From IMG/VR virus record IMGVR_UViG_3300030333_002529, positions 1 through 43,929 of that record: a stretch of 43,929 bases of DNA. One strand, written 5' to 3'. Both the position numbers and the translations under genes were made by a program. The notes beneath the pieces are model-generated. The model was not told the origin of the DNA and searched no databases. It worked only from the letters and a program-made list of their open reading frames with translations. This document shows, piece by piece, positions 1 through 40,271 of the stretch (position 1 is its first letter; each line of letters starts with the position of its first letter). The stretch is from a virus.

Positions 1-3000
1 CCATCAGGTCTTACATAGATGTAAGAAGGAATCATGTAGTTAGTACCAGACTGAGTGAATGACCAGTTACTATCAACGATTAAGTTGTCATCATCAGTAA
101 TAGCAGTAATCATATGTCCTTCAATAACACCAGGTGAACCACCTGTTGTATTAACGATCTTGATTGTATCACCGATCTTGAAGAATCTCTGGAAGGCAGC
201 ATTAGTACCTGTGACTCTTCTTGTACCAGCTGTAACAGCAACTGTACCTGTTCCTCCAACTTCACCAGATAGTGCAGCAGAGATCAACTGGTGGAATCCT
301 GATGAGGTTCCTGTGATGTCTACAATGTTAGTTCCAGCAAGTGCGTCTGCTAGTGACTCACAAAGCTTGAAGTGAGCGTTATCAATAACAACCACATAGT
401 AGTCCTTATTGTGAGTCAAACCACCGATAGTGCTGTTACCATTGTTATCGTAGATAACTCTAGTACCAGTAGCATAGTAGTGGTTGTTAATGTTGATCCA
501 GTTGTCTGTAGTATCAACATCAGTACCAGAACCATCAAACTGTTTTATAGAAGGTGGAACTTTAAATGGAATTGAAACTTCAAGTTCTGTCTCGGAGATT
601 GCCTTAACAGTAGTGTAAGAACCATCAACAACACCGAAGTCAGCAGTTGTGTTCTCAAACTCTTGAATACCAGATCCTTGTCCAGATAATTGGATAGTAC
701 TACCACCAGGAGTATTCGTTAATGTGAATCTATCTCCACTGATAGTGTTGATGTAGTAAGAATTACCACTTGTTAATCCACCAATAGCACCAGAAGCACC
801 CGTGTACTTAACAACTTCGTTGTTAGAGAACTGGTTAGTTGCAATATAAATGGAGTTCTTTAATGGGTTATCAAGAACAGCAGTAAATCTAACCTGTCCA
901 TTTGCACCAGCCAATCTCAATGGGCTAGAACCTGTACTTGACTTGATTCTGAATCTGTTATTATCGATTCTATCAATGTACCATGTACCACTGCTAGTAG
1001 TAGTTCTATTACCATGCCAATCATAGTAGTAATGAATTTCACCACCTTGAGGCATACTCAAAGTCATGGATTGGTTATTTGAGAATCCGTGGTTTGCATA
1101 GTAGAAACTATCATTGGTTGATTGGTTTCTCTTAAGGAGAATCCAGAACATAGTATGTCCACCATCAGTAGAGATATCTCTAAAGTACTGGTTAATACTT
1201 TGAGAATACCATCCCTGATAATACCACCAATAGTGACCTTGACCACGTATATTCATGTAGCTTCCACCAGACCATCCATTAGCATAGAAGCTTGATGTCC
1301 AGTAACTCTTACTACCACCAGAACCCCATGCACCACCAATGGTATAACCATAACTGTATCCACCATTGTTATGAGTGTTTACACCATAGTTTTCGTCATC
1401 TGTGATGAAGTCGTATTGACCTTGCCAACGCTCACTTGAACTTCTTGGTAGACTTTGTAGATGATATCCATAAGTTTTCCAATATGTTCCAAATGCATGT
1501 CTCCATGGCCAGCAATAGTAATAATGCTGTGTTCCATATCCACCACGCTCTGGCCTTGATGTGGAGAAGAACGCTGTCAACTCCCAGTTCTGCCTACCTA
1601 ATCCATAACTACCATCAACACTTGCGAAGTCATGTCCTGAATAAGTTGAACCCCACTGCCAGTAGTAAGTATAGATTCTTGTATTCCATTCATGCCAACC
1701 TTTATATTCTCTGTAGCATGTATAGCATAATCCAATCTTATGCTTACCATATGACCAGTTACCATCCCATGTTCCACTATAAGAATTACTTAAGTTAACA
1801 CGACCATAGTTTCTTCTCTGAGAATGGTGGAAAGCAATCTCAGTAGAGCTAACTCTCTCAATCCAATACACCTGCATCCTACGCATAGAACCGATTGGAC
1901 GTGCTCCTGGGGGTGGATAGTAAAGTACAGAATATCCGTTTTGGAGATCATGGTTACTATCGAACGAGACTACATTATTACCGTAATCTACTTGTGACTC
2001 ATCAAATGATAAAGTATATGTTGATTCGTAATCATACGGATCAATCTTCGTCATATCAACATCTCTGTTGACCGTAGCACTCTGCTCTGTATCAACGTAA
2101 TCCTGACCATCAGGAGCAGTAGCAGTAGGATCTTGAACTTCAAGTATCTTAGGAGATACAGTGTTAATGAAGTAGAAGTTTGTGTTATCAGCAAATCCGT
2201 GCTCAGAAACTGTGGTTAGATAAACCTTAGAGTTTGTTGTAGGAGCAAGCATTGCTACTCCAGCATTAACTCCAGCAATAACAGCACCAGTTGCTGTACC
2301 ACCACTGTGTACGTGAACAGAAGTATCTGTAACAGGACCTTGACCACCGTTTACATTAACTGTAATTGTTGTTGCGGTCTTAGAAAGAATTGGAATCGCT
2401 TGGTTGTAAACATAGTCAGCACCGTTAGAGGTAGCAGCACCAGAAGCACGAGGATATGATTTAACAGTTGAGTTTCCGTCTCCCTTATAATCACAAGTCA
2501 GTTTAATAGATTCTGTCTTAAGCTTAATGTTTTGACCAGCTAGTAAACTATGAGAACCAATGGTCAATACCATATCACCTGTAATTGGGTTATATGATAC
2601 GTCAGTAACGTCAATGTTCTGAATAGTTGCACCTGCGTTACCAGCCATATTAGCGTGGTTTACACAGTAGTAATAGAGGTTATCAGGAGTAGAGTTGTTA
2701 ACGTAGATTCTTGTGTATGCACCAGCTTGTCCAGGAGTTCCATGCTCATAAACATATGTGTCATAAGCAGAACCACCACCATGAGTACCATCAGCAGTTG
2801 TGGAGAATCTTAGTTGATGTGTATTGTTAGTAATATCAGACTGATCAAAGGTATAGATACCCTTTCTTGTCATTGGGAAAGCTGGATAAAGTTCTCCAGC
2901 ACCATCACCTGTAGTATCAATAAGATATTTGTTACCCTCTGCATTAACACCACCACTAGCAGCAATAGTAAGTTGTGCTGATCCACCTATAGTATCGATA

Positions 3001-3938
3001 CCAGTACCTGTAATTGTTTCTCCATCTTGGAATGCACCAGCAATATAGTTAACATATAAATTAACTCCTTCCACACGAAGAATAGTACCTTGAGCAGCAC
3101 TAGTATCACCTGCAATTACAGTACCAGGTACCCATTCCTGAGCTGGTTCGGTTGTAACTACAAGTCTTGTTATTGCAGCAACAGTAACCTTGTAGTTGTA
3201 AAGGTCAGACACAATACCAATTGATTGGTCTAGACTGATCTGAGAACCTTGGAAGAACTTACCTGGAATAATAGATGTATAAACACCTTGCAATTCTCTA
3301 GTTGCTGGTTGACCTGATCTTGCTTTATAAGTAAAGGTTGTAGATGTAGGTACAGCCTGAATGATATATGTACCTTCCGCAGTAACAGATGCAAGACCTG
3401 TAACTGTAATAGGAACACCACTTGTAAGGTTATGGTCGAAACTTGTAGTAACTGTAATAAGCTCGTTACCTTTAACAGCTTCTACTTTAGATATAAAGGG
3501 GATAGTAGTATCTGAAGTAGATGCAAAGAACGATGGAATGTTATTAATCGTCTGAATCGTTTCCCACTTAGAAGCCTGAGGTCCGTACTCAAAGTCGGTA
3601 TCAACGAGGTTTTCTGGGTTTGATACTCGGAACTTTGATACAGCATCAACAAATGTTTCAGATGGTTCCATCTTGACGGAATCTTCTTCCTCAAGAATTT
3701 GGAGTGTGTCTGAATCAGACATTGATGTCGTATCATACAGCAATGTGATTGTTGTATGATCAGTTGCAGAGTCGTAGCTAAACGTACCAGTTCTGGTAGT
3801 ATCAGCAAAGTTATAGATAATTTGGTTATCCGTTGTGTTAGTTATCAACAACATTCTTCGCTGGTGCTTATTACCATGCAAAGTAACTGTTCTTGCTGAT
3901 GCGTCAAACGTATAATCAAAGAGCAAGGTTTTTGCCAT
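1..3938 (-). CDS. Large virion structural / tail-fibre-like protein, C-terminus beyond window edge
   Basis: An open frame starts at an ATG (3938) and stays open for 1312 codons to the left edge, so the protein is incomplete. The first 150 residues (MAKTLLFDYTFDASART...) resemble a conserved N-terminus I associate with cyanophage structural proteins. Residues about 160-215 form a beta module ending in TYIIQAVPTSTTFTY that resembles E1_FCCH-type repeats. Residues about 350-440 carry H374, C425, H428 and M431 in the arrangement of a type 1 copper site (YYYCVNHANMAG). Residues about 690-960 are extraordinarily rich in Tyr, Trp and Gly. Further short beta modules follow. There is no signal peptide or membrane segment. 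It lies 92 bases after the Mtd_N-like gene, with no exact late-promoter box between. A role as fibre or adhesin is inferred from length and modularity; reading-frame confidence is high, function moderate. Confidence 0.85.
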   Translation of the reverse strand, partial: MAKTLLFDYTFDASARTVTLHGNKHQRRMLLITNTTDNQIIYNFADTTRTGTFSYDSATDHTTITLLYDTTSMSDSDTLQILEEEDSVKMEPSETFVDAVSKFRVSNPENLVDTDFEYGPQASKWETIQTINNIPSFFASTSDTTIPFISKVEAVKGNELITVTTSFDHNLTSGVPITVTGLASVTAEGTYIIQAVPTSTTFTYKARSGQPATRELQGVYTSIIPGKFFQGSQISLDQSIGIVSDLYNYKVTVAAITRLVVTTEPAQEWVPGTVIAGDTSAAQGTILRVEGVNLYVNYIAGAFQDGETITGTGIDTIGGSAQLTIAASGGVNAEGNKYLIDTTGDGAGELYPAFPMTRKGIYTFDQSDITNNTHQLRFSTTADGTHGGGSAYDTYVYEHGTPGQAGAYTRIYVNNSTPDNLYYYCVNHANMAGNAGATIQNIDVTDVSYNPITGDMVLTIGSHSLLAGQNIKLKTESIKLTCDYKGDGNSTVKSYPRASGAATSNGADYVYNQAIPILSKTATTITVNVNGGQGPVTDTSVHVHSGGTATGAVIAGVNAGVAMLAPTTNSKVYLTTVSEHGFADNTNFYFINTVSPKILEVQDPTATAPDGQDYVDTEQSATVNRDVDMTKIDPYDYESTYTLSFDESQVDYGNNVVSFDSNHDLQNGYSVLYYPPPGARPIGSMRRMQVYWIERVSSTEIAFHHSQRRNYGRVNLSNSYSGTWDGNWSYGKHKIGLCYTCYREYKGWHEWNTRIYTYYWQWGSTYSGHDFASVDGSYGLGRQNWELTAFFSTSRPERGGYGTQHYYYCWPWRHAFGTYWKTYGYHLQSLPRSSSERWQGQYDFITDDENYGVNTHNNGGYSYGYTIGGAWGSGGSKSYWTSSFYANGWSGGSYMNIRGQGHYWWYYQGWYSQSINQYFRDISTDGGHTMFWILLKRNQSTNDSFYYANHGFSNNQSMTLSMPQGGEIHYYYDWHGNRTTTSSGTWYIDRIDNNRFRIKSSTGSSPLRLAGANGQVRFTAVLDNPLKNSIYIATNQFSNNEVVKYTGASGAIGGLTSGNSYYINTISGDRFTLTNTPGGSTIQLSGQGSGIQEFENTTADFGVVDGSYTTVKAISETELEVSIPFKVPPSIKQFDGSGTDVDTTDNWININNHYYATGTRVIYDNNGNSTIGGLTHNKDYYVVVIDNAHFKLCESLADALAGTNIVDITGTSSGFHQLISAALSGEVGGTGTVAVTAGTRRVTGTNAAFQRFFKIGDTIKIVNTTGGSPGVIEGHMITAITDDDNLIVDSNWSFTQSGTNYMIPSYIYVRPD

Positions 3939-4291: not shown

Positions 4292-7200
4292 TTATATTAT
4301 CGTTGCGAACATAAATGGTGGCTCGAATGTTCTGAGCTCATTGAGAGACTCTCCACTGAGAGTAATTGTTCCCTCTCCAATGTATGCAGATCTGACGAAT
4401 TTATCATCAGCACTACCACCAATTGTTGTAAGAAGAATATTTTCGTAGTCAACAGTGGCAGATTCAACTCCTCCACTGAAGGCAAATAGTGTTCCGTAAG
4501 GAGCAACATATCCGAAGGTACGTTTGATATCTGTGACTTCACCAGATACAACGTAATCAACATCACCTGCTGGATCAGCATGTGTAAGCTTAACATCAGT
4601 AACTTCTCCAGTGATATCACTGAATGAACCAGATCCGACATATCCCTTACGTACAAAGGCTTCTGCACCATGACCGAAGATATCATATAGAGTTGTATCT
4701 TCGTAATCAACGGTTGCAGATTCAGCAGCTCCAGATGCAGTGAATAGTGATCCAGATCCAGACTCAGCAAATGTAAGTGAATCATCAACAACACCACTAA
4801 TTGATGCAGTACCAGATCCTTGATAATGATCTGTCTGTCTTTCATCTGAAGTACCAAATATAGTTGCTGTACCAGAACCAATATTGTTAGGTGTGAATAT
4901 ATTTCTAGATTCACCACTGAGGGTAATAGTACCAGATCCAGAAAGAATAACTGCTTTTGCTTCAGAACTATTACCTGCAACTGTGTAAAGTAGGGTATCC
5001 TCTGGAGGATTTGTGGTGATTGATTCTGCGGAACCACCTGTCGTGAATAGGGATCCAGATCCAGTCCAATGTTTCGTGATCTGAATATCTGTAACTGCAC
5101 CAGAGATATAAGCTGAACCAGAACCAATCCAACTTGGAACCCATTGAATCGCTGCTTCTCCAGTGAAGGTAGCAGTACCAGTACCGATTTCTGGAGCTGG
5201 TGTAAAGCTCTCTGCTTTTGTACCAGAAATGATAATAGAACCAGATCCGATAAATGGTCTTGTTCTGGATGGTGCACCATCGCCACTGATTGTAAATATT
5301 CCAGTGGTGAACTCGCTTGTGGAGATAGATACTGCTGCACCAAGAGCTGTAAATAGAGATCCAGATCCAGACTCTGCAAATGTTCTTTGAACATCGGAGA
5401 CTGCACCAGATACAGTTGCAGATCCAGAACCAACCCAGTTCTCTGTATGCTTCTCTGTAACAGCACCTGTCCAAGTATAGAGAACTGTATTCTCTGGAGG
5501 ATTTGTAGTTGTAGATTCTGCAGAACCACCAGCAGTAAATAGTGATCCAGATCCAACCCAATCGTCTGTTTGACTTTCGAGTGCTGATCCAGATATGATA
5601 ATTGAACCAGATCCAGACTCTGCAAATGTTCTTTGAATATCTGAAACTGCACCAGAGAATGTTGTGGATCCAGAACCGATCCATCTCTCTGTATGCTTCT
5701 CGATACCAGCACCAACATATGTGTATAGTACTGTGCTTTCTGGAGGATTTGTTCCGATAGATTCGGATGCTCCACTTGCTGTCCAAAGAGATCCAGAACC
5801 AACTTCTGATACTGTACTTCTTTGTGATCCAGAACCACTGATTTCGTATAGACCAATACCATCGATATTTGCAGAGAAGCTTTCTGCAGCACCACCAACT
5901 GAGAACAATGAACCAGATGCAGTCCAGTGTTTCGTGATAAGTGGTTCTGGGATTTCTCCAGATGTAAAGTAAGAACCTTGACCAACCCAAGAAGGTGACC
6001 ATTGACTCTCGGCATTGCCAGACCAGACAAATAGTGCAATATCCTCTGGAGGGTTAGTACCAACTGCCTCTGCTGCACCACCAGCAGTAAAGACATTACC
6101 AGAACCAGTAAGGATGTAACGAACCTTGAATGTACATGCACCACCAATTGTGTAAGTACCACTACCAGTGATGTGTGGAATGTAACGAGTACCAGTAGCA
6201 GCACCAGATAGACTGATGGATCCAGATCCAATTTCTCTAAATACTGCTTTCTCAACTTTAGTACCACTAATCTGATGAAGTGAAGTACTCTCAGGTGGAT
6301 TGGTTGTAACAGATTCAGCAACACCACCAGCAGTGAATAGAGATCCAGAACCAAAGTACCTAACACGGTAAATGAGATCTGCTTCACCAGTGATAGTTGC
6401 AGTACCAGATCCTTCAAATGCACCAGTGTATTTCTCGGAACCAGAACCAGATAGAGTAATAGATCCAGATCCAACATGGGTTGCAGGAGTAAAGCTTTCT
6501 GCCTTAGTACCACCAACTGCGAATAGTGCAGTATCTTCTGGAGGATTGGTGGTTGTAGATTCAGCAGCACCACTAGATGTGTATAGTGAACCAGCACCAA
6601 TATGTCTGAGAGAGAAGGTGTAATGTGTAGAACCAACAATAGTGAAGAGATATGTTGACTCATAATCAACAGTTGCACTCTCTGCGGCTCCACTAGCAGT
6701 AAAGAGACTACCAGATCCAATCTCAGGTGCTGGAGTAAAGCTTTCTGCCTTAGTACCAGATAATGTAACTGTACCAGATCCAATGTAAGGTGCTCTAGCA
6801 ATTCTAACAATAGCTTCACCAGATACAGTTGCAGATCCAGAACCAATCCATCTCTCTGTATGCTTCTCGATAGCACTACCAACATAATCCCAAAGACCAG
6901 TTCCAGCCTCAAGAACAGCAACAGCCTCAACTGCTCCACCAGCAGTGAATAGTGAACCAGAACCATCAAAGTTAGCAAAGGACTTGCTCTCTGCACCTGC
7001 ACCAGAGAGGGTAACATTACCAGATCCAACCCACTCATCTGTCTGCCTTTCAACTGCAGCACCAGATAGAGTAATAGATCCAGATCCAGACTCAGCAAAT
7101 GTCTGACGTTCTGATATTCTAGTACCAGCAACTGTGTAGAGTAATGTATCCTCTGGTGGGTTGGTTGTTGTAGACTCAGCTGCACCACCAGCACTGAATA

Positions 7201-10200
7201 GAGATCCAGACTGTACAAATCCATGACCCCATGTAAATGCATAGGTGTTATTAATAAACTGAGGTGCAGTGTAAATGTATGCACTACCTTCACCAGTTAG
7301 AGCTGTTGTAGGTCTCTCTAGTCCTTCACCAGAAACTAGATATGTACCACCCTCACATCCTTGTCTCCAGACGAATGGAGTATTTGCAACACCACCAATT
7401 GTGTAAGTACCAGATGCAGCGAGACCAGGATGTGCAAGTGTGTTGTTGGAACCGTAGTCTTCTTCACCGCCCCATTTAACACCAAGGTCACCGTAATCAG
7501 CAAATACTGTTGTAGGATCAACGATGTTGCCTTCATCATCAACAACAAGTTGAGATGGTAAGGTATCGCTGTAATTCCATGTTCTAGATTCAGCAGCACC
7601 ACCAAGAGAACTGATGTTACCAGATCCGTAGTACTGCCAACTGAAGCTATATGTGTTACCAATAAACTGAGGTGCAGTGAAGATATCATATAGAGTAATA
7701 TCTTCGTAGTCGTATGCAACAACCTCTGCTGCACCACCAGTAGCAAATAGTGATCCAGAAGCAATATGTCCAAATGTCCTAGCAATACCAACGGTATCAC
7801 TTATTAGACCAAGATGATAAGTTCCAGAAGCAGATACAGTATCACTAGATCTCCATAGTTGACTTCCAAGACCAATCCAAATAGATCCATAATCATATTC
7901 ACCACCATCTTGAGGTGGATGAACTGTACCTTGATCATCAACAACAGTAACACTATCTGTTATTAAACCATTATCTTCCTGGAATGTTATGGCGGTGAGG
8001 TTAATATCATAGTTGTAAGTTCTAGACTCAGCACCACCAACAACAGTGAAGATAGAACCAGTTCCAACCTCACGGAATGTTCTTGCTATAGAATGAGTAC
8101 CACTTAGATCACCAAGTGATGTGTCCTCTCCAAACTCAGTTGAGGTAACAGATTCAGCTGCACCAAGAGCAGTGAATAGTGAACCTTCACCAGTATGTGC
8201 GTATGCTGGTTTGTAGATCTCAAATACTTCACCACCGAAGGTAAGAGTTCCATTTGCTGCAGCACCATTGGTAGCACCCAACCATACCTGACCATGATCC
8301 TCGGTATTATCACCAGGATATCCAAATCCACCATGATCATCAATTGTTGTAACAGCATCAGATATGAAACCGTTATCCTCAGTACTAAATGCCTGACTAG
8401 CAGATTCGTTGTAAGCATATGCTCTAGATTCAACACATCCACCAACACTAAACAATCCACCAGATCCATCAGGTGCATTCCAAATAAAGCAGTATGTGTT
8501 ACCAACAAACTGAGGTGCAGTGAAGATATCAAATAATGCAGTATCATTCTCAGGTGAATATGTTGAAGATTCAGCAGCACCAGAAGCAGTAAATAGTGAT
8601 CCAGAACCAGAGAAGTTACCAAAGGTGAATGCAGTAGATACAGAACCATCAATAACATAGGAACCTGTTACTGGTATTGCATTAGCACTGTAAAGTACAG
8701 ATCCGTAATCATATTCACCACCAGACTGAATAGTATCAACACTACCCTGATCATCTGATGTGACTACACTGTCTACTACTAGACCATGATCAGTTGATGT
8801 GAATACAACGATAGCATTCTGATCATAATCATATGTCCTACACTCAGCAGCACCACCTGTTGAGAATAGAGATCCTGTTCCAATCTCAACAACAGTACTT
8901 GACTGTGAACCAGAACCACTAAGATCTCCAAGTGATGTATCCTCACCAAATTCAGTAGTAGATACACACTCACCAGCACCACTTGTAGCGAATAGAGAAC
9001 CACCACCAGTGTATACACCCTTACTGAATGATTGAGTAACAGCACCATCAACAACGTAAGTACCTGTTGTTGGATATGTGGTAGAGGTGTAGAGAACCGA
9101 ACCGTAGTCTACTTCACCATCAGATTGAGGTAGTGCAACCTCACCATAATTGATTACATCATTAGTTGGATGTGTTGCATCAGTTACTGATCCATAATCA
9201 ACAGTACCATAAGTAACAACAGCAGAATCATTGTAAGCATAAGCTCTAGATTCTACACATCCACCAATACTGAACAATCCACCTGTGCCTGGAGGTGCAT
9301 TCCAAATGAACCTATAAGTATTACCAATAAATTGAGGAGCAGTAAAGATATCGAATAGTGCTGTATCCTCAGTAGGTTGATAGGTAGCAGATTCAGCAGA
9401 ACCACCAGTAGTGAATAGTGAACCTTCACCAGTATGTGCATAAGATGGTTCGTACTTAACATCACCAGATTCTTCTTGTGTCTTCTCATCCCCTACTTGT
9501 GGGAATGTACCAAATGGTTCAGTTAGATATTCTGGGTTGAGTGCATCAATTTCTTCCTGAGTCCACAGTGCTCTTGTTAGACTGATGGTATATGTTCCAG
9601 AGTTGGAAACAGTCTCTGATGTGTAAATTACGAATCCGTAATCTTCTGTGTCCTCATCGAACAATCCAAGATCACCGTAATTAATTACGTCATTAGTTGG
9701 ATGTGTTAAATCAGTTACTGCACCCCAATCAGCAGTATTAAATGGAAGTGTTGGACCAGGAGCATAGTTCCATGTAACACACTCAGCAGCATCAACTATA
9801 CTGAATAATCCACCTGATCCTGGAGGTGCATTCCATACGAAGCTATAGGTGTTACCAATATACTGAGGTGCAGTAAAGACATCAAAGAGACCTGTTGATT
9901 CCCAATCAACCGTTGCAGACTCAGCAGCACCAGCAGCAGTGAATAGAGATCCATCCTCTGATACAAAGTTCCAGCAGAAGCTGTAAGTATTGTTAATAAA
10001 CTGAGGTGCAGTAGTGAGAGTTACTAATCCAGTTACAGGATATACAGTCTCAGTGTAAATTACTGAACCATAATCATCTTCACCCTCTTGTATATCAGCA
10101 ACATTACCTTGATCAACAAGTGTAGTTGCAGCATCTGTTATTAATCCATAGTCATCACTTGTGAATGTAACGATGGAAGATTCGTTGTAATCGAATGTTG

Positions 10201-13200
10201 CAGACTCAGCAGCACCAAGAGCAGTGAATAGTGATCCAGATCCAACCCAATCCCTAGTTCTAATAGTATTACCAATACCACTTAGATCACCAAGTGATGT
10301 GTCTTCACCAAACTCAGTAGAAGTCTTACTCTCTGCAGCTCCACCAGCACTGAATAGAGAACCACCAGCAGTAGGATCTCTGAATACAACATATTCTGAA
10401 CCAATACCTGATGTCTGAAGTGTTCCTGTTACAGGATATATTGTAGAAGACCAAATTACTGTTCCGTAATCATCTTCACCTTCTTGGATGTTAAGATCAC
10501 CATACTCACCAAATACTGTTGCATTATCAACAATGTTACCTTCATCCTCAGTGGAGAATACATTAATAGAAGACTCGTTGTAATCAAAGGTAACAGATTC
10601 AGCCGCACCACCAATGGTAGGTAAGTTATAGTAACCAACATAACTCCATGCATATCTGTATGTGTTACCAATAAACTGAGGTGCAGTAAAGATATCAAAC
10701 AGTGCTGTATCATTAACTGGTTCAAATGCAACTCTCTCTGCAGCACCACCAATACTGTATAGAGAACCTTCACCAATCTGACCCCAGATAGGTTTGTACT
10801 GAACATGACCTGCTTCTTCTTGTGTCTTCTCTTGACCTGCAACTGGGAATGTACCGTAAGGTTTTGTCTCGTAAGTAGGAGGTAACTGATCAATCTCCTC
10901 TTGAGTCCATAGAGGTCTTGTTAAACTTAAGTTGAGTGATCCGAATGGAGTAGCAGTAGAGGTGAATATAATCTGTCCCTGATCATACTCTCCACCATAC
11001 TGAGGTTCTATTACAGAACCATAGTCATCAACTACAGTTACAGAATCAACTACCAATCCATTATCTACTGTTCCATATGGAATAATTGATGATTCGTTGT
11101 ATGCCCATGATACAGATTCTGCAACTCCATTAAGACTGAACAATCCACCTGTACCTGGAGGTGCATTCCATACGAAGCTATAGGTGTTACCAATAAACTG
11201 TGGAGCAGTGTAGATATCAAATAGTGTTGTAGCATCACCAAGTTCTGTGTTGGTAATACATTCACCAGCTCCACTAGCACTGAATAGTGATCCACCTTGT
11301 GTAGGATCTCTGAATACAATAGCATTTGGTGAAGTACCAGAAGCTTGAAGTGTTCCTGAAACAGGAAGAACTGTGCTAGTCCAGAATACCCAACCATAAT
11401 CATATTCACCACCAGACTGAGGTGCAGTGATAACTGTACTATCGTCAAAGACAGTAGCAGCATCTGTTATAAGACCACTATCATCAGTACTGAATACAAC
11501 AATGGAATCTTCACTGTAATCATATGTTATAGACTCTGCTGCACCACCGATAGTTGGTACTGAAGCATAACCAGTGTAATTCCAGCAGAAGCTATAGGTG
11601 TTACCAATACCTGCAGGTGAAGTGTAGATATCGAATAGTGTTGTAGAATCACCAATTTCTGTTGTAGATACACATTCAGCAGCACCACCTACAGTTGGTA
11701 TTCCACCAGTACCAGCAGGTGCTCTCCATACAAATCTGTATGTGTTACCAATCCATTCAGGTGCAGTGAATATATCAATAGATCCTGTTACAGGATATAC
11801 AGTCTCAGTGTAAATTACTGAACCGTAATTAATCTCTTCTTCTTGTGGGAGTGCGACTCCTCCATATTCAGCTGTAGTAGTTACACCGTCTGCTATTAAT
11901 CCTTCATCATCGGAAGAGAAGGTAACAATAGATGATTCGTTGTAGTCGAATGTTACTGACTCAGCAGCACCACCGACTCTGGACATTTCACCAGTACCAA
12001 TTTCACGGAAGACAAGTCTTTCGACCATGCTACCGATATAATAGTTACCACCAACTATCTGGAATGCACCAGTTGTATTTGGTTCTACAGTAACAGATTC
12101 TGCTGCACCACCAACTGAGAATAATGAACCCTGACCAATCTGACCCCAAATAGGAATGAATCTAACATCCTTCGCTTCTTCCTGTGTCTTCTCATCACCT
12201 ACCTGTGGGAATGTACCGTAAGGCTTGGTCTCATACTCTGGATTAAGTTCATCAATATCTTCCTGAGTCCACAATTCTCTTATGAGACTAAAGGTGAATG
12301 TTCCCTGTGCAGAATTAGCAGTAGCACTATAGACAATTAAACCATAATCATATTCACCACCATCTTGAGGTGGATGAACTGTACCATAATCCTCACCTAT
12401 AGCAGCATCTGTTATAAGACCACTGTCTTCACTGCTGAATGGTACAACTGTACTATCATTATAATCAAATGTTGTTCTTTCTGTATGTGCAACACCTTCA
12501 AAGGATGATATGTTACCAGATCCAATCTCTCTGAATGTTGCTTGAAGGTTAGTATATGCACCAGAATAAGTAAACAGTGCAATATCTTCAACTGGTTGAT
12601 ATCCAACTGCTTCGGAAGCTCCTCCCATACTGAAGAGGTTACCACTCTGTACGAATCCATGACCCCAAGTAAATGAGTAGGTATCGAAGTTATGACCCTC
12701 AGTAGCAGAAAGACCTGGATTCTCTGGTTGGAAATAATTCTCTGGAGTTGAATCATTAATAACTTTAGGATCAGTCTTGATAGTAAGTCCACCCATTGAG
12801 GTTGCAACACCCTCATGCCAGATGTACCACCAGTTCTCTGATAACCATCCTTCAGTAACAAGACCCCAATTCTCTGATTCAACTGGACTATCTGTTATTG
12901 ATCCCCAGTTATCAGTACTATATCCAATAGTAGCAGTTTCATCATATCCATATGTTCTTAGTATTGCTACACCACCAGTTACAGGTAGAGAACCAGATCC
13001 TGTCCAATGATACTGGAACTTAAGATTGCTATATGCACCAGACCAATTGAATAGAGTTGTCTCTCCTCCAACTACACTATCAGTTCTACACTCAGCAGAT
13101 CCACCAGCACTGAATAGAGATCCAGATGCAGTCCAGTGTGGTGCATTAGTTGTAAGATCTTGACCAGTTATATGGATAGATCCTTGACCTTCCCAATACC

Positions 13201-14245
13201 TAGCGTAAGTACCATCTCCTTGAATATCATAGAGAGCAATAAACTCATACGTTCCAGTATTTGCCTCTACGTTATTCCATATAATTCCACCATGATCATA
13301 TTCACCACCTGACTTAGGTTCTGCAATGCTTCCTTCATCTTCAGTCTCACTAAATCCATACCAGACTAATCCATGATCTTCTGTCTGTAATGTAAATCCA
13401 GATTCATCATTAAACTCATGTACAAACTTCTCAATACCAGCACCTGCATATGAGGTGTTACCAGACATAACCTCACGACTTGTCTGTGAGTATATCTCTC
13501 CACCAGTTAGACTGAATAATGTTGTCTTATCTCCAAATTCTGTAGAGGTCTTAGTCTCTGAGAGACCACTTGCAGCGAATAGACCACCTGAACCTGTTCT
13601 ATCTGTAGTAAAGCTATAAGTATTAAATTCTGCCCAAGGTGCATTACTAAACTTATGATATGATGTTGCACCTCTTACATCACCTATGTTGTATACAAAT
13701 CCCCAAGATTCTTCTCCTCCAGACTTGGGAGCTGTAATATCTCCAAAATCCAAAAGACTTGGGACTGCATCGACAGCTCCCAAGTCTTCTGTAGTGAATG
13801 GTACGAATAAAAATTCGTTCCAATCTAATGTTGTTGTTACCTCGCAAGTTCCAGATACACTAAGCCCACCAGAACCTAACCAGAACGCACTACTGCGTTC
13901 CATTCCACCACCCATTTCAAATAGGGATCCATTACCAGCCCATATCTTTCTGATACCCTCTAAAGCGGTACTAGCAAGCAATGCAGTTCCAGTAGAGACA
14001 TGAGGGGCAGGGCTCCATCTTTCAGTGGATCCACTAGATATGGTTGTTGTTCCAAATGGATAGTTATCTGCTGATACAGATATTTCTCCGTAACTATCTT
14101 GACTTAAATTACTTTCTGCTTCTAAATTCGTTGGAGCATCACCTATCGATCCATAATCATCCGTTACGTTAAGGACGGTAATATCGCCATAACTTTCGGT
14201 AGAGTATAGAGAAATTGTATTTGAATCGTAGGTATATTCGTTCAT
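4292..14245 (-). CDS. Giant repetitive beta-rich virion protein (3317 aa)
   Basis: This is one uninterrupted frame of 3317 codons, starting with ATG at 14245 (MNEYTYDSNTISLYSTESYG). Almost the whole protein is repeats. The N-terminal two thirds alternate DYGxITD/GGEYDYGSV segments, TAPQFIGNTYSFxW segments (at least ten copies) and GSGGLFSxGGAAES segments. The last third (about residues 2350-3250) is a tighter array of roughly 18-20 residue units such as GSGSLFTAGGAAES, TTNPPEDTxLYT and GSGSITLSGxxxE. Cysteine is rare, and there is no signal peptide or transmembrane helix. A hairpin terminator precedes it, and a late promoter follows for the next gene. The composition (Gly, Ser, Thr, Ala, aromatic) suggests a long beta-structured fibre or surface protein. 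I recognise no catalytic domain; the exact virion location cannot be told from sequence. Confidence 0.85.
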   Translation of the reverse strand: MNEYTYDSNTISLYSTESYGDITVLNVTDDYGSIGDAPTNLEAESNLSQDSYGEISVSADNYPFGTTTISSGSTERWSPAPHVSTGTALLASTALEGIRKIWAGNGSLFEMGGGMERSSAFWLGSGGLSVSGTCEVTTTLDWNEFLFVPFTTEDLGAVDAVPSLLDFGDITAPKSGGEESWGFVYNIGDVRGATSYHKFSNAPWAEFNTYSFTTDRTGSGGLFAASGLSETKTSTEFGDKTTLFSLTGGEIYSQTSREVMSGNTSYAGAGIEKFVHEFNDESGFTLQTEDHGLVWYGFSETEDEGSIAEPKSGGEYDHGGIIWNNVEANTGTYEFIALYDIQGDGTYARYWEGQGSIHITGQDLTTNAPHWTASGSLFSAGGSAECRTDSVVGGETTLFNWSGAYSNLKFQYHWTGSGSLPVTGGVAILRTYGYDETATIGYSTDNWGSITDSPVESENWGLVTEGWLSENWWYIWHEGVATSMGGLTIKTDPKVINDSTPENYFQPENPGLSATEGHNFDTYSFTWGHGFVQSGNLFSMGGASEAVGYQPVEDIALFTYSGAYTNLQATFREIGSGNISSFEGVAHTERTTFDYNDSTVVPFSSEDSGLITDAAIGEDYGTVHPPQDGGEYDYGLIVYSATANSAQGTFTFSLIRELWTQEDIDELNPEYETKPYGTFPQVGDEKTQEEAKDVRFIPIWGQIGQGSLFSVGGAAESVTVEPNTTGAFQIVGGNYYIGSMVERLVFREIGTGEMSRVGGAAESVTFDYNESSIVTFSSDDEGLIADGVTTTAEYGGVALPQEEEINYGSVIYTETVYPVTGSIDIFTAPEWIGNTYRFVWRAPAGTGGIPTVGGAAECVSTTEIGDSTTLFDIYTSPAGIGNTYSFCWNYTGYASVPTIGGAAESITYDYSEDSIVVFSTDDSGLITDAATVFDDSTVITAPQSGGEYDYGWVFWTSTVLPVSGTLQASGTSPNAIVFRDPTQGGSLFSASGAGECITNTELGDATTLFDIYTAPQFIGNTYSFVWNAPPGTGGLFSLNGVAESVSWAYNESSIIPYGTVDNGLVVDSVTVVDDYGSVIEPQYGGEYDQGQIIFTSTATPFGSLNLSLTRPLWTQEEIDQLPPTYETKPYGTFPVAGQEKTQEEAGHVQYKPIWGQIGEGSLYSIGGAAERVAFEPVNDTALFDIFTAPQFIGNTYRYAWSYVGYYNLPTIGGAAESVTFDYNESSINVFSTEDEGNIVDNATVFGEYGDLNIQEGEDDYGTVIWSSTIYPVTGTLQTSGIGSEYVVFRDPTAGGSLFSAGGAAESKTSTEFGEDTSLGDLSGIGNTIRTRDWVGSGSLFTALGAAESATFDYNESSIVTFTSDDYGLITDAATTLVDQGNVADIQEGEDDYGSVIYTETVYPVTGLVTLTTAPQFINNTYSFCWNFVSEDGSLFTAAGAAESATVDWESTGLFDVFTAPQYIGNTYSFVWNAPPGSGGLFSIVDAAECVTWNYAPGPTLPFNTADWGAVTDLTHPTNDVINYGDLGLFDEDTEDYGFVIYTSETVSNSGTYTISLTRALWTQEEIDALNPEYLTEPFGTFPQVGDEKTQEESGDVKYEPSYAHTGEGSLFTTGGSAESATYQPTEDTALFDIFTAPQFIGNTYRFIWNAPPGTGGLFSIGGCVESRAYAYNDSAVVTYGTVDYGSVTDATHPTNDVINYGEVALPQSDGEVDYGSVLYTSTTYPTTGTYVVDGAVTQSFSKGVYTGGGSLFATSGAGECVSTTEFGEDTSLGDLSGSGSQSSTVVEIGTGSLFSTGGAAECRTYDYDQNAIVVFTSTDHGLVVDSVVTSDDQGSVDTIQSGGEYDYGSVLYSANAIPVTGSYVIDGSVSTAFTFGNFSGSGSLFTASGAAESSTYSPENDTALFDIFTAPQFVGNTYCFIWNAPDGSGGLFSVGGCVESRAYAYNESASQAFSTEDNGFISDAVTTIDDHGGFGYPGDNTEDHGQVWLGATNGAAANGTLTFGGEVFEIYKPAYAHTGEGSLFTALGAAESVTSTEFGEDTSLGDLSGTHSIARTFREVGTGSIFTVVGGAESRTYNYDINLTAITFQEDNGLITDSVTVVDDQGTVHPPQDGGEYDYGSIWIGLGSQLWRSSDTVSASGTYHLGLISDTVGIARTFGHIASGSLFATGGAAEVVAYDYEDITLYDIFTAPQFIGNTYSFSWQYYGSGNISSLGGAAESRTWNYSDTLPSQLVVDDEGNIVDPTTVFADYGDLGVKWGGEEDYGSNNTLAHPGLAASGTYTIGGVANTPFVWRQGCEGGTYLVSGEGLERPTTALTGEGSAYIYTAPQFINNTYAFTWGHGFVQSGSLFSAGGAAESTTTNPPEDTLLYTVAGTRISERQTFAESGSGSITLSGAAVERQTDEWVGSGNVTLSGAGAESKSFANFDGSGSLFTAGGAVEAVAVLEAGTGLWDYVGSAIEKHTERWIGSGSATVSGEAIVRIARAPYIGSGTVTLSGTKAESFTPAPEIGSGSLFTASGAAESATVDYESTYLFTIVGSTHYTFSLRHIGAGSLYTSSGAAESTTTNPPEDTALFAVGGTKAESFTPATHVGSGSITLSGSGSEKYTGAFEGSGTATITGEADLIYRVRYFGSGSLFTAGGVAESVTTNPPESTSLHQISGTKVEKAVFREIGSGSISLSGAATGTRYIPHITGSGTYTIGGACTFKVRYILTGSGNVFTAGGAAEAVGTNPPEDIALFVWSGNAESQWSPSWVGQGSYFTSGEIPEPLITKHWTASGSLFSVGGAAESFSANIDGIGLYEISGSGSQRSTVSEVGSGSLWTASGASESIGTNPPESTVLYTYVGAGIEKHTERWIGSGSTTFSGAVSDIQRTFAESGSGSIIISGSALESQTDDWVGSGSLFTAGGSAESTTTNPPENTVLYTWTGAVTEKHTENWVGSGSATVSGAVSDVQRTFAESGSGSLFTALGAAVSISTSEFTTGIFTISGDGAPSRTRPFIGSGSIIISGTKAESFTPAPEIGTGTATFTGEAAIQWVPSWIGSGSAYISGAVTDIQITKHWTGSGSLFTTGGSAESITTNPPEDTLLYTVAGNSSEAKAVILSGSGTITLSGESRNIFTPNNIGSGTATIFGTSDERQTDHYQGSGTASISGVVDDSLTFAESGSGSLFTASGAAESATVDYEDTTLYDIFGHGAEAFVRKGYVGSGSFSDITGEVTDVKLTHADPAGDVDYVVSGEVTDIKRTFGYVAPYGTLFAFSGGVESATVDYENILLTTIGGSADDKFVRSAYIGEGTITLSGESLNELRTFEPPFMFATII
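4500..7200 (-). repeat. Short-period coding repeat array in the C-terminal third of the giant protein
   Basis: The DNA keeps repeating variants of the codons for GSGSLFTAGGAAES and TTNPPEDT. On the plus strand this appears as runs like agtgatccagatccag. The period in protein is about 18-20 residues, with two alternating unit types, one with LFTAxGAAES and one with xxTLSGxxxE. Copies differ at many synonymous sites, so they are old or under selection to diverge at DNA level rather than freshly duplicated. Confidence 0.75.
9465..12280 (-). repeat. Three copies of a roughly 450-residue super-repeat
   Basis: Three copies of a distinctive block, LWTQEEIDxLNPEY followed by GTFPQVGDEKTQEE, occur at about 12170-12280, 10805-10915 and 9465-9580. 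They are spaced about 1345-1355 bases apart, giving a super-repeat of about 450 residues. Each is followed by a GxGSLF segment and the same order of TAPQFIGNTYxF and DYGxI modules. The WTQEEID block is the only helical-looking, charged part of an otherwise beta-rich protein. Confidence 0.75.
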
Positions 14246-27057: not shown

Positions 27058-27071
27058 TATTTATATTTATA
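27058..27071 (-). promoter_or_regulatory. Double late promoter before gp8 (two overlapping TATAAATA boxes)
   Basis: The minus strand reads TATAAATATAAATA, two exact TATAAATA boxes sharing two bases (27064-27071 and 27058-27065). They straddle the stop codon of the gp7-like gene and lie about 42 bases upstream of the gp8 ATG. This would give gp8 its own late transcript, partly independent of gp7. Confidence 0.7.
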
Positions 27072-30000
27072 CTTGTCTAACTACAGTTCCTGCAGTTTCA
27101 GTTGTTAGACCTGAAGGTTGAATAGTATCTGAACTACCGTAATCAACGATAAAACGATCAGATAATTTTGAACTATAAGCGATACGGAACTTACCGACTT
27201 GTATCACACCTGTTGCATCAAATGCAGCAGTAGTTGATACCATAACATTAGAATCAGTCCAATCAAAATCACCGTCTAATATTGTTGCGGAAAGAACTGC
27301 CGTTGTGGAAGTACCCATACCGATAGTAGGAGCATTAGTAGGAGTTGTTAATCTAACTGTACCAGTCATTGATAATGTATTATCAAGCTCAATCTGTTTG
27401 ATTGAATGGGTCAACGATGTGGTTGTTCCCATTGCAGATTGAGTAATACTATGAGGTGTGGTAACATGAATCTCTGTTGCTCCAACAGAAACCTTATTAT
27501 CCCTAACGAGTTGTTGAGTAACTTTAACTTGATCACTCTGAGAAGATGCTGCAGCAACACTATGAGTAAACTCATATGCTAACTGTGTTGCTTCCCCAAC
27601 TAAGGATACTGTGGATAATGTATTAAGACCAGTTATAGTGTCTTCAAATTTACGGATGTATTTAGTATCAAATTGTCTAGTCTTCTTGATAATATCATAA
27701 CCACGAGAGACATTAACAACAGGAGGAGCAGTATATCCACTACCACCAGATTCTAAAATAACATCAATAACATTACCACCATCAACAATAACATGTGCTT
27801 TAGCACCACCACCATTTAGATCAACTGGTTCAAATGTTAATACTGGTGGTGTATCATAATTATGAGCTTGTGGATTAGAACCGAGAACAGTTTTATTCCA
27901 ATTCAATGACGTTACAGTATCACCAGTAATAACTGCTTTAATATCAAGACCTTCTCCTTTAGTGTCACCATTATAATTGCTAACAGAGATAACACCTACG
28001 TTATCACCTATTTGCGTATCTTCAACATGACTCAATGATTTAGATTCTCTAGGAGTTAATTTGACTGTTCTATAATCATCCTCACCATCGATCTTAATAT
28101 GATCACCAGGTTCGATTGAAGTTATAGTAGGTTTAACCCTATCATACAACCAAGAAACACTATCTTTTCTAAGAACTCTACTACCATCAACATCATTATA
28201 TGTAACTGATGTAGTAAGAGCAGATAAATCAACCTCAGTATAAGATGCAGTCTGAAGATCAGTATTTGCAGCAATTCTTAGAGGTTTGGTGAGATCAATC
28301 TTAGGATTCTGAGCAATAAGAGTAACATCCCATCCACTAGCAGTTTGGTTATACTTTCTAACCATACCAATGGTTGTATATACATCAGGTGTTGGCCAAG
28401 AGTTATCGGTAAACTGATAAACCACTGCACCATCTCTTACACCTGAAATGAAAGTAGCATATTCTGCAGAACCACCAGTAACAGTAATAGTTACTTCATT
28501 AAAGAAACGATCTGGTTCTACATTAAATGCATCTAATAATTGATCAATAGAAGTACCAGTTAATAAAACTATACCAACACTTTGACCTTTCTTTAAAGCT
28601 TGACTGAATGTAATACTAGACTCATTTATAGTATATGCAGTATTTCTCTTCTGTAATATTCCATCAATATAAACAAAAGCAAATCTATCATCATCAACAA
28701 CTACTACATCACCAGTCTTTTCATCTCTCATAATAAATGGTCCATTAATAGATCCATTGAAGTTCTCTTCTTGTAGACTCATTCTTACATAACCACCAAT
28801 ATTATGTGCAAAGAACTTATCTACAGCAAGAGGTTCTTGAAGAGTTAATGTATTCAGATTCTGTTTCCACTTAGGTGCTTCTGAAAATATAATTCTATCA
28901 GGATCACTAGCACCAGCAGATCTCTTAATGTAGTAAGAATTTAGTCTAGGGAATGTTTCATCATACTTAGCACTCTGGAACACTCCATTGATACCAACTA
29001 TAAGATTATGATCAACCTCTGTCTTTACTGGTGTATTATCAGTATAATATAATTCAAATTCTTTGTTTTCATTATTGAAGTAATCTGGTAGAGACTTAAC
29101 TACAGAACTACCATTCAATATAGATTCAACATTTAAGAACAAAGAATTTAAAGCAGATACTACAGTATCACACTCTGTAAATACATTGTCCTTAGCAAGA
29201 ATGTTTATATTCGTTAATGTCCTTAACGTAGTCCAATTACCAGTTCTTTGATTATTATCTTCAACCTTAGTGAATAAGTTTGGACCTTTATTAATAGTCT
29301 TAGTAACTATCTGGATGTAACTATTCAATGCAGATTCTACTTCAGCACAAGTTGTTACATAAGGACCATTAGGATCAGCAAGGATAGTCGTATCTTCATA
29401 AGGAACAATAGTAGTATATGTGCCAGTTGGAAGATTGTTCTTCATTGCCTCAACCATAAGTTGAGTTGCTTTTGTATAAGCAGCAATACTCTCTTCTTTC
29501 TGATCTACTATGTGATTAAGTTTATTCTTGTAATAATATCTCTCACCAAAATCAACAACATTCCAGTTACCACCATATCTTATATGATATACCATTGCAT
29601 CTATAAGATACTCAGTATCTCTCTGACACTTATCTTCATCAGGTATTGCTAAATTTGGATATGTTGCTTTTGTCCAACCAATAGTCTCTTCTGAAATATA
29701 TTTCTTATTTCCTTCAATAAGCTTAGCAGCATCCATGAACTTACCATTATTAATTCTACTGAATGAGAAGGTTATCTCATCAATATTATTAATTGTGGAA
29801 TAAACAGTTGTAGTTGCTCCAATACCAACATTTAATACACCACCAGTAGAAACAGTAACAGGACCATAATTAGTGGTTCCACTGTTATTAACGACTGTAC
29901 TAATATTCTGAGCTGGATATGCAATGTTTGCTGCATTAGAAACTTTGATCTGTGTGGAGCTTACTATCTCAGTAACTATAGTACCTTCATTAAATTGATT

Positions 30001-33000
30001 ACCACTACTTACATTCATTCCTACACATATACCTAAAGTGGAAGGAAGTGTAATAACATCCTGTCCTTGAGATACAACACAGTTCTTAACCGATATATCC
30101 CAATTCCTTGCTGCAGCAATACACAAGTTCATAGTATATTTGTATATCTCGACAGCAGAAGCTTCTACAGTTGTTTCATTAAAGTATTCTGTTGCTGCAT
30201 AATGAGAAGCAGAGTTACCACCAAATCTAAGATCATGCTCATAAGCATCTAAAATTAATCCAACATCTCTAACACACTTAGATTCTTTAGTATTCCAAGT
30301 TAAATTAGGATACTTAGATTTACCATATCCAACTGCTTCTTCTTGGATGAAATTCCTATTAAAACGCAATTGATTAGCAGCATCAATCCATGTACCTTCT
30401 TTTTGGAAGATAGGTCTAATCTTTTTCAAATACTGAAGGTTCTTGGAAGCTTCCTTAAATTGGAATAATCTTCCAATAAACTTAGTTGCTGCAATTGTAT
30501 TATTACCCTCTTGTCTAATACCAAATGGTGCTGTAGCAAAAGTAATCTTATCACCAGATACAGTATAAGCAGTCTCTGGTTCTTGTAATACTGCATCTAA
30601 TGTTATGGTCAAAGCCATAGCATTATATGGAGTTATTGGATTGTTAGTAGCAGCATCAACAATGGTAAACTCTCGTGTACCAGAAATATTACCATACTGA
30701 TCAAAAGTACCATCAAATGCTGGAGTGAGTTTAATCTCTTTAGCAATTAATCCAGATGTATCACTTGCTTTCTCTGTAAGAGATCCATTACCTCTCAATA
30801 CATTAATATCCTTAGATAAGTTTACAACAGTTTGATGATACCTTTTACTATCAGCAATACTTGCATTATTACTATTCTCATCCCATAGTCTTAATGTTGA
30901 AACTTGAGTAGTCTTGGAATTATCACTTACCTTTACATCTACCTTCGCATCTATATTAAGCTCACCAAACATCTTAAATCCAGCTGGATGAACTGACTCC
31001 TTAATGAGATCTCTCCAGTCTTCTATCTGTGTCTTAGACTCAATAACATAAGAATAATCTTGGTAGAATTTATTATCTGCTATCTTATGAGTTCTTACAC
31101 CAATTTTACCTTTATCAGAAGTATAAGTACCTAGATTATCATAATAAGATCTTAGATCAATTGAAAACTCTGCTCTCTGAACAGAAACTATTGTGCCAGT
31201 TGAATTACTGGCACTACCAGTAATAGTCTGACCTACAATAAATTCACCTTTAGTTACAGATACCTTAAGAATGTTAGATCCTATTCTCCATCCACCATTA
31301 GTAACAGTACCTTCTGCAAGTCCAGAAGTTACCTTTTCTCCACTCAAGAAATCATCTGTTGTGTCTAATATAATAACATCACTTGCCTTATGCTTTCTTA
31401 ATACTGAAGTATCATTCCAAATTCCAGATCCATTAAATTCGAGTTGTACATTCTTTGGAGATCCTATAGAAGAACCCAAAGCAAATATTCTAATATCACC
31501 TTCAACAACCTTAAGTTCTGGTTTGTATGTGTAGTTCTTTCCTTTGTTTGTTACAATAACATTTGCTATTCTATTATCAGCAGTTTTTAAAACATCAAAC
31601 CTTGCTTCAGATCCATCACCATCAACTACAACAACTTTTGGTTTAGAATAGTTAAATCCAGCTTTGTTGATTGTAACACCAACAATATTCTTTTCTACAG
31701 GATCCCATTGTGCAGTAACATCAGAAGCTCTACTACTATCTAATTCTGCTCCTAATACACCAGGAACTTTCCTATAACCAGAACCAAGATTAGATACCTC
31801 AACTTCGGCAATAGAACCAGTTGCACCTTTAGATTTTGTAGTATACCTAATATTACCAGTTCCATACCACTCAGGATTTTCTGTTAACTCATATACAAAC
31901 CTATCAGTTGTAACAAATGATACTTTAACTCCTGTACCAGTAGACTGAATAGAAGATGTGAGTGCATCAGAAATTAACTTCTGTCCTTGTAATGGATCAT
32001 TAATAAGCTCAATATAATTGTTATTATCAACAATACTTGTGGATGGACCAATTCTTATCTGCTTAGTTCCATCTACCATTGTTCTCACTATAGACTTATA
32101 GTAATACCTTTGATAAGATCTAGGTACTCTTTTAGTCAATATACCAGTAAGATTAACATCACCAAGTCTAGGACCATATCCAAACTTCACATATGAATAA
32201 GAACCTGTAGTACCAGGAGTACCAATATTAACAACTTCTGGTGCAATGATATTATCATTCTGACTAGGAGATATAATAAACTCAGATTCGCTGTTTGTAT
32301 AATGACTCAAATCAAATCTGTATTGATAATACTCTTGTATCTTAAGATTAGGTGATATTTCATATGGACCAGAAACAGATGAAGATATTTTTGTTACAAT
32401 CTTATAATCTGTAACAGTATCAATATCAATTAATTTCTTAGGTTCACTCTCATCAAATAGTGTAGCTTGATCTGTAATCTTATATGGAGTAAAGTCTCCA
32501 TTAGCAAAGAATCCTTGATCATGTTCTACAATCAGTTTATTATTCTCATATGAAATGATTTTAGGATCTAATGATGTACCTGTAACAGGAAGCAATTCCC
32601 CAACAGTAAATCTATAACTAGATCCATATAATGTAACAATTTCATTGTCGAAATGATCTATATCACTAGTATTATTCTGTGCCCTTGTGACAGTTACTGA
32701 TTTGGTAGACTCTGATATAGAGTTTACCTTAACAATCTCATCACCTATTGATAAAAGATCATTTTTTGATAACCCACTAATAGAATCTAATTTTAATACA
32801 GTCTCACCAGTAGCGAATCCAATATGATCGACTACTAAACGTAGACGTTGAGTATTAGTAGAAGCACCTGATCTGTTTAATGATGAATCCTCAACAGTAA
32901 GAATATCACCTTGCTTGTAAGTAGATCCTTTAGTTGTAATAACAACAGACTGTACAAATCCTAATCCACCAGCAACCTCCTGTACAACTATGGTTGCTTT

Positions 33001-38822: not shown

Positions 38823-38845
38823 AGTGATATATTATGTATATCACT
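38823..38845. other. Perfect 9-bp inverted repeat between oxygenase gene and gp25
   Basis: AGTGATATA and TATATCACT pair perfectly around a five-base loop. The repeat overlaps the stop codon of the oxygenase gene and ends 14 bases before the gp25 start. There is no T-tract, so a classic terminator is unlikely. It may be an mRNA processing or translation-control hairpin, or a chance structure in AT-rich DNA. Confidence 0.5.
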
Positions 38846-39446
38846 TTATTGGTCTTAATGATTCAGGAGGACCAGCTCCATCACCTTCACACACATCAAA
38901 TGCTATAGAAACACGAATACCATCCTTATCATGAGGAGGAACCCAGTGTGGTACATCTGCAGAGAATATAATAAGATCTCCTTTACTATTATCTACACGC
39001 ACATCCTCATAAACCTTTGGCTTCACTTGGAAGTTAAACCATGTACCATCTGTAGGACCACCACAATATAAAATACATGATGCCCAACTCATAGGTGGAC
39101 AATTAGGTGCAGCAACATCTCTATGAGCATGAATACCAAGACCTTCACCATTTCTGAAGGTATTTGCCCACATTCTTACATTTAATCCATCAGGAAAAAT
39201 TCTGCGGATAGCAGGCATCATAATACTATGAATAATCTTATCATCCAAATGATTGTAAGATCCTGCTCTACCACCAAGAGCATCCGTTTTCTTATATACT
39301 GAATACTGACCCAAAGCAGCTGCTTCATCAGGGCCAGTTGATTTAACGTATTCTTCTGTCTCTATAACACGCTTGTATAATATATCGCATTCAGCTTCAG
39401 TTAACCATTTAGGTATAATCTGATATTCAGGCCCCTTTAGTTTCAT
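38841..39446 (-). CDS. 2-oxoglutarate/Fe(II)-dependent oxygenase-like protein, 201 aa
   Basis: The double-stranded beta-helix signature is complete: H108 and D110 (IHAHRDV) as the HxD pair, distal H167 (DVPHWVPP), and R178 (GIRVSIAFDV) as the likely 2-oxoglutarate-binding arginine. The segment GDLIIFSADVPHW is typical of 2OG-Fe(II) oxygenases. Such genes are common in T4-like cyanophages, often among structural genes, with unknown substrates. The start overlaps the preceding 50-aa gene by 20 bases. Possible roles are hydroxylation of a virion or host protein, or nucleic acid modification; nothing in the sequence decides between them. Confidence 0.85.
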   Translation of the reverse strand: MKLKGPEYQIIPKWLTEAECDILYKRVIETEEYVKSTGPDEAAALGQYSVYKKTDALGGRAGSYNHLDDKIIHSIMMPAIRRIFPDGLNVRMWANTFRNGEGLGIHAHRDVAAPNCPPMSWASCILYCGGPTDGTWFNFQVKPKVYEDVRVDNSKGDLIIFSADVPHWVPPHDKDGIRVSIAFDVCEGDGAGPPESLRPIK

Positions 39447-39584: not shown

Positions 39585-40271
39585 TTAGTGATAGTTGGTC
39601 AGTCCACCTTGCATTTGCATGTTATCAAACCTTACTTCCTTTAAGTTAAAAGACATTGATATTCTTTCAACATAAGAATGATAAGGATAAACTAGATGCC
39701 ATAGGTAAGAAGGGAACATATACATGTTACCTGCTTTAGGATGTATTACAGCATGTTGATTAGCATGTACTATATCTAAGCACCCTGCTGTTTCTGCTGC
39801 AAATCCATTCTCTTCTCTTTCTTTCTCAATATCTTCTGGTATATCTATAAACACAACGGCACTTATAATACCACTATGGTTGTGTATAGGATTAAACTCA
39901 TTCTTATCTGAAAAGTTAACCCAAGGTCCATCTCCTAGATTAAAACTAATCTTATGATCGTTTGGATCTAAGAATCTACCTGCATTCTTTCCATCCTTAG
40001 TACAACGATCTGTTGTTATTTCCCTATCATATGTGCCTTTAAGGTAATTAAAGACATGTGGTCTAAGAAAGTCAACAAATTCTTTTTGTGGGTATGGTGC
40101 AGCTTTCTGAGCTTGTATATTACCAGCTAACTTATCACTAACGTCATGACCCATTCTTACAGAATCAAGGTGCTTTAGGAGAAAGTCTAAAAACTCTCCC
40201 CTTATATCACCTTTATACACTAATGGTCCAAATGGGACAAAACATTCATTATGCGGTTGGTTTTTGGTCAT
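39585..40271 (-). CDS. 2OG-Fe(II) oxygenase-like protein (2OG-FeII_Oxy_5 type), 228 aa
   Basis: The C-terminal half carries FNPIHNHSGIISAVVFIDIP and later PKAGNMYMFPSYLWHLVYPY and VERISMSFNLK. This matches the 2OG-FeII_Oxy_5 / TIGR02466-type pattern with an H-x-H motif (H130, H132), distal H192 and R203. It differs clearly from the neighbouring HxD oxygenase, so the two are not recent duplicates. It overlaps the preceding 119-aa gene by 23 bases and is followed after 5 bases by the 50-aa gene. Substrate unknown; related cyanophage proteins are usually annotated only as oxygenases. Confidence 0.82.
   Translation of the reverse strand: MTKNQPHNECFVPFGPLVYKGDIRGEFLDFLLKHLDSVRMGHDVSDKLAGNIQAQKAAPYPQKEFVDFLRPHVFNYLKGTYDREITTDRCTKDGKNAGRFLDPNDHKISFNLGDGPWVNFSDKNEFNPIHNHSGIISAVVFIDIPEDIEKEREENGFAAETAGCLDIVHANQHAVIHPKAGNMYMFPSYLWHLVYPYHSYVERISMSFNLKEVRFDNMQMQGGLTNYH

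Follow-up and report, generated by a model that had tools for sequence, protein, structure and literature searches.

The carrier gene and the domain in the window

The DNA analysed is the IMG/VR virus contig IMGVR_UViG_3300030333_002529, and the term window refers here to this whole stretch of 43,929 bases. At its left edge lies an open reading frame (ORF) of 1312 aa. In the PHROGs comparison, its product matched a virion structural protein (phrog_5838, E 2.6e-34) and a baseplate wedge subunit (phrog_2885, E 9e-19). This marine phage is T4-like, and the gene sits in a T4-like structural cluster together with baseplate wedge proteins, a PAAR-type protein and two 2OG-Fe(II) oxygenase-like genes. 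The positions of the features are presented in Table 1.

The family HMM matched the window protein at residues 326-440 (E 5.7e-42). A preliminary description of this DNA had placed the domain from residue 340 onward, but the real start lies ~20 residues earlier. The same description had named H374, C425, H428 and M431 as a complete type 1 copper-like ligand set, and all four residues were found at their codons in the left-edge ORF. In the window copy, the spacing from the first His to the Cys is 51, and the loop with the remaining residues reads C-V-N-H-A-N-M; a six-frame scan of the window revealed this loop as the sole C-x2-H-x2-[MQ] in a plausible gene. Both the window copy and the family follow the type 1 copper ligand order H...C-x(2-4)-H-x(2-4)-M.

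Table 1 Features of the window and cellular carriers of the domain (ligand roles are predicted; counts refer to family members)
Feature	Position	Strand	Remarks
Virion structural protein ORF with the domain	3..3938	-	1312 aa, open at left window edge
Cupredoxin-type domain	2613..2981	-	residues ~320-442 (~123 residues), N-terminal strand 321-328 included
H374, first copper-ligand His	2817..2819	-	H in 222/224
C425, thiolate ligand	2664..2666	-	sole Cys of domain; C in 220/224
H428, second ligand His	2655..2657	-	H in 221/224
M431, axial Met	2646..2648	-	M in 221/224
Trp/Tyr-rich stretch of the 1312-aa protein	~1050-1850	-	residues ~700-960
Repeat protein	4292-14245	-	3317 aa
Weak ligand-free relative of the domain	32188..32358	-	residues 1418-1474 of a 3180-aa structural protein (27067-36609)
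Two adjacent 2OG-Fe(II) oxygenase-like genes	38841-39446, 39585-40271	-	beside baseplate genes
Predicted surface lipoproteins, domain near C-terminus	L175, L178, L179, L182, L184, L192, L195, L196, L197, L199, L225		marine bacteria, Marine Group II archaea

When nine window proteins were searched with the family HMM, the ligand-free relative was detected with an E of 6.9e-5. Two further peculiarities of the window proteins were recorded. The 3317-aa protein contains many GSGSLFxxGGAAESxT-type repeats, and 21 of its stretches match phrog_11522, a family of unknown function. The 1312-aa protein has a stretch very rich in Trp and Tyr, with a CYTC pair (C738, C741) and a YYYCWPW motif (C809).

Distribution of the family and conservation of the ligand residues

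The preliminary description had noted that the TADGTHGGG and GTPGQAGAYTRIYV setting recurs in marine phage proteins, and this proved correct: the domain is present in 81 phage records, most of them from phages of Synechococcus, Prochlorococcus, Pelagibacter and Methylophilales, and in 458 IMG/VR stretches, confirmed among the first 600 candidates. With another family member as the query, 70 phage records were obtained. The carriers are variously annotated as genes for tail fibres, for the baseplate wedge initiator (gp7), for virion structural proteins, or for structural and packaging proteins adjoining the portal, and multiple matches per phage occur (five in P-SSM2, five in MED4-213 and three in Bellamy). 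The PHROGs with the domain carry general names only, e.g., tail fibre or structural protein, and the window domain has no match in the versions of Pfam and NCBIfam that were searched; thus, annotation is probably incomplete for many marine structural proteins. Two small phage-type proteins (L163 and L173) consist of a Cys-containing, zinc-finger-like N-terminus (CDRCGFRY...CRSCYEE in L173) followed by the domain. In BFVD, a beta-sandwich protein of Pithovirus LCPAC302 (A0A481Z6J5) matches the window model with an E of 8.8e-6 and 29% identity and is a possible giant-virus relative.

Genome contigs of bacterial and archaeal origin, for the most part marine, yielded 99 confirmed stretches, some of which may be of phage or prophage origin. 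In SAR86, SAR92, K189A and Marine Group II, the domain often lies close to the C-terminus in proteins whose N-termini are lipobox-like (11 cellular ORFs), a combination suggesting that the cellular copies are displayed outside the cytoplasm. Some cellular carriers possess cadherin-like or collagen-like repeats ahead of the domain. On a contig of Prochlorococcus AG-418-C09 (L200/L284, ~181-188 kb), a large protein combines a ligand-poor family domain with bridge domains of the Copper-bind type (see below).

These data raise a key question: are the four putative ligands a property of the whole family, or do they vary freely among homologues, which the preliminary description had named as an outcome speaking against a metal site? 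They turned out to be near-invariant, and conservation across the family rules out a chance motif. A search of all collected loci with the profile of alignment A1, which was itself built from ligand-bearing rows, yielded 224 distinct complete members, and all four ligands are kept in 219 of them. The five departures from HCHM are NSAM, HEDM, HNNY, KDHV and one single change of M to L, indicating that the ligands have mostly been lost in sets; ligand-free copies also occur beside intact ones. Alignment A1 comprises 15 diverse hand-picked sequences, and H, C, H and M make up four of its eight invariant columns.

Since the query pattern of the first viral scan contained C..H..M, conservation was rechecked with a query from the N-terminal half of the domain. 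Among all loci collected at that stage, 165 of 170 domains retained C..H..M, and in the resulting list the motif was missing only in L105, L148 (M to L) and the truncated L118. In the larger alignment A7 (76 phage and cellular rows), H, C, H and M were the sole columns listed as invariant by the alignment tool, although only the first His represents a free test there because C..H..M was required for entry; with gaps ignored, the loop glycines G400 and G403 also reach 100%. A lone Cys per domain was found in 214 of 216 cases, which leaves the residue no partner and speaks against a disulphide role.

Predicted fold and kinship to cupredoxins

The fold of the window copy was predicted with AF2 for residues 331-446, i.e., with strand 1 absent (pLDDT 81.6). 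The fold search against PDB with this model returned mainly Ig folds and some multicopper proteins, all weak and none significant. A conserved upstream strand, VTVAS, is visible in the wider family alignment (AQLTIAAS at residues 321-328 in the window), and its absence from the model probably explains the weak Ig-like matches. L234, a SAR92 member with 39% identity to the window copy, was modelled with strand 1 included, resulting in a pLDDT of 95, a pTM of 0.87 and eight strands in a Greek-key sandwich of the 7-8-stranded type. In this model, His50 is located just before a strand, strand 91-96 ends at Cys96, His99 and Met102 occupy the following loop, and the last strand spans 104-109, so that by strand assignment the Cys ends the penultimate strand and the His and Met lie in the next loop.

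In the Foldseek search of PDB, the best matches of the L234 model were nitrite reductase, rusticyanin, plastocyanin, pseudoazurin and laccase, with a top E of 8.8e-5, 36 matches at E<=1e-3 and moderate TM-scores of ~0.5. Nearly all of the best 50 matches are cupredoxins or multicopper proteins, SO1698 being an exception by name. The resemblance to cupredoxins anticipated in the preliminary description was recovered with the full-domain L234 model and not with the window segment lacking strand 1. Nor does the modelled strand layout place the ligands far apart, the other adverse outcome named there: in the prediction for L234, they would occupy cupredoxin positions. Given the identity between L234 and the window copy, a cupredoxin-like fold (described in PMC4059628) can be transferred to the latter by homology.

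At the level of sequence profiles, kinship to known cupredoxins is more distant. The Pfam family PF00127 (Copper-bind) has a cut-off of 21.2 bits, which L234 does not reach with 16.6 bits. Nevertheless, no Pfam family is matched by more A7 members than Copper-bind (23 of 76), with weak matches (best E 0.0039) that lie under the cut-off, by score in the member shown and judging by E-value in the others. Weak matches to PF25489 (At5g54830-like domain) were also found in 11-12 members of alignments A4 and A7, and this domain may be a distant relative. Applied to 17 marine genomes, PF00127 retrieved ordinary cupredoxins, members of the phage domain family (under the cut-off) and a bridge set of cupredoxins (alignment A6: L274, L280, L281, L284 and L285) from marine Bacteroidetes and a Prochlorococcus genome; all five bridge proteins match Copper-bind, three of them above the cut-off.

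Profile-profile comparisons with hhalign gave probabilities of 92-96% between the family and the bridge set (the best, A4-A6, being 96% with an E of 4e-9), 98% between the bridge set and ordinary cupredoxins (A5-A6, E 2e-13), 64-91% between the family and ordinary cupredoxins, and <1% between the family and an fn3 control. After permutation of columns, none of the 150 permuted profiles reached the real score of the closest viral relatives (A3) against A5, A6 or the combined set. When the four ligands were masked, the hhalign probability fell to ~1-13%; thus, much of the sequence kinship signal is the ligand set itself, and the cupredoxin fold match of the L234 model represents a line of evidence separate from this ligand-heavy link.

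In sequence searches of PDB, the A7 profile found six matches at E 0.5-1.1 among 177,635 sequences, five of these matches being blue copper proteins (pseudoazurin, plastocyanins), the HMM of the closest viral relatives (A3) picked antibody heavy chains, and the single window domain retrieved nothing meaningful. The blue-copper signature C-x(1,2)-[PG]-x(0,1)-H-x(2,4)-[MQ] with its upstream context, a PROSITE-style pattern, occurred in none of the 216 members. The family does not group with Ig/fn3-like domains, as judged by the fn3 comparison and the single Cys; Ig domains proper were compared by the fold search.

Interpretation and comparison with known systems

The ligand conservation, the L234 model with its PDB matches and the profile links to Copper-bind all support the central proposal of the preliminary description that a structural protein of the phage contains a site of the cupredoxin type. 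We consider it likely that residues ~320-442 form a domain that has a cupredoxin fold and a complete type 1 ligand set and belongs to a mobile virion subfamily, for which we infer copper binding and a stabilising or adhesive role. By fold and ligands, the domain is a cupredoxin-like, as yet unnamed cupredoxin subfamily. Copies of this subfamily would have moved between marine virion proteins that are otherwise unrelated (tail fibres, baseplate proteins, products of portal-adjacent genes), as well as between surface lipoproteins of marine bacteria and archaea. The site formed by H374, C425, H428 and M431 would bind copper. Free copper is almost absent from the bacterial cytoplasm, and loading would thus probably take place once the virion is outside the cell. 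With less certainty, its main job may be that of a metal-stabilised surface or adhesion module, comparable to the Ig-like domains of other phages, instead of a catalytic or light-sensing one; this role is a guess. Nothing was found in favour of the light-sensing function suggested in the preliminary description, and the domain may be redox active.

Another important question is whether a metal is held at all. The domain could be a cupredoxin-like or Ig-like beta-sandwich adhesion module with an H/C/H/M cluster that persists for reasons of packing or folding, and the weak resemblance of the window model without strand 1 to Ig folds, the antibody chains picked by the A3 HMM, the ligand-free copies beside intact ones and the loss of homology signal upon masking are all consistent with this. 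We nevertheless regard such a metal-free module as unlikely, since the four metal-type residues hardly change where most other positions vary, their losses come mostly in sets, the lone Cys has no disulphide partner, and the full-domain model matches cupredoxins and not Ig domains.

Somewhat less probable still, in our estimation, is a site that holds another metal in nature (Zn or Fe) and serves host attachment. The iron-binding HxH tail motifs reported for T4 and marine phages (PMC11705849) and the location of the domain in tail fibres and baseplates point in this direction; however, the thiolate and Met ligands are those of the type 1 copper set, whereas HxH iron sites use paired histidines, and the presence of the domain in portal-adjacent genes and cellular lipoproteins would not be expected for a dedicated receptor key. 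A redox-active domain engaged in electron transfer or copper/ROS handling at the host surface during adsorption seems the most improbable of these alternatives: redox activity is typical of type 1 sites (PMC4059628) and the cellular homologues look like surface lipoproteins, but neither an enzyme domain nor a gene for a redox partner was identified, and the domain behaves as a module that moves between structural proteins.

The copper-binding, metal-stabilised reading would have consequences beyond the window. The domain recurs in many ocean phages, in proteins of the tail and of the head, which suggests that copper or a similar metal may be a constituent of their particles. With the site occupied, abundant marine phages would have a copper centre in their virions, and trace copper would acquire a testable link to phage stability or adsorption, in parallel to the iron-in-tails hypothesis. 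The broader idea that many ocean phages incorporate type 1 copper sites into their virions, that redox-active copper of the free virion acts in attachment or stability, and that phages are an unrecognised pool of copper ligands in seawater is put forward only tentatively, and we rather doubt that it holds in full. Among the open-access papers searched, none describes a cupredoxin as part of a phage virion, although an earlier description may exist elsewhere; the closest concept there is iron bound at HxH motifs of tail fibres (PMC11705849). Virion proteomics of S-SM1 (PMC3037559) found many such large hypothetical proteins in cyanophage virions, and carriers of the domain may be among them.

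Known cupredoxins serve as electron carriers or form parts of copper enzymes. With the Copper-bind proteins (plastocyanin, azurin, pseudoazurin, amicyanin), the phage family shares the ligand order and the eight-stranded sandwich, although the window-type domain is embedded in large virion proteins. Unlike classical cupredoxins, the family almost never has Pro or Gly between the Cys and the His, usually has Pro and not Asn after the first His (Gln in the window copy), and possesses a long Gly/Thr-rich insert (TADGTHGGG ... GTPG..GAYT). The bridge set (GHPFYLKT ... YYYQCSLHxGM) has HP and C-x2-H-x2-M in common with the phage family but differs in an H-to-C spacing of 43-44 versus ~50 and in lacking the FDQSDSSN stretch. 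Ig-like domains of tailed phages, such as T4 Hoc, are mobile beta-sandwich modules shuffled among structural proteins, as is the phage cupredoxin-type domain, but have no metal site. The preliminary description had compared the order His...Cys-x2-His-x2-Met with plastocyanin and azurin; the order itself is present, but the loop length equals that of amicyanin, the ligands of which are His53, Cys92, His95 and Met98 (PMC12723479). Finally, the His-x-His iron sites in phage tail fibres, the subject of the Ferrojan/Trojan Horse hypothesis (PMC11705849), likewise place metal ligands in marine phage tail proteins, but there the histidines are paired, the metal is iron, and no cupredoxin-like domain is involved.
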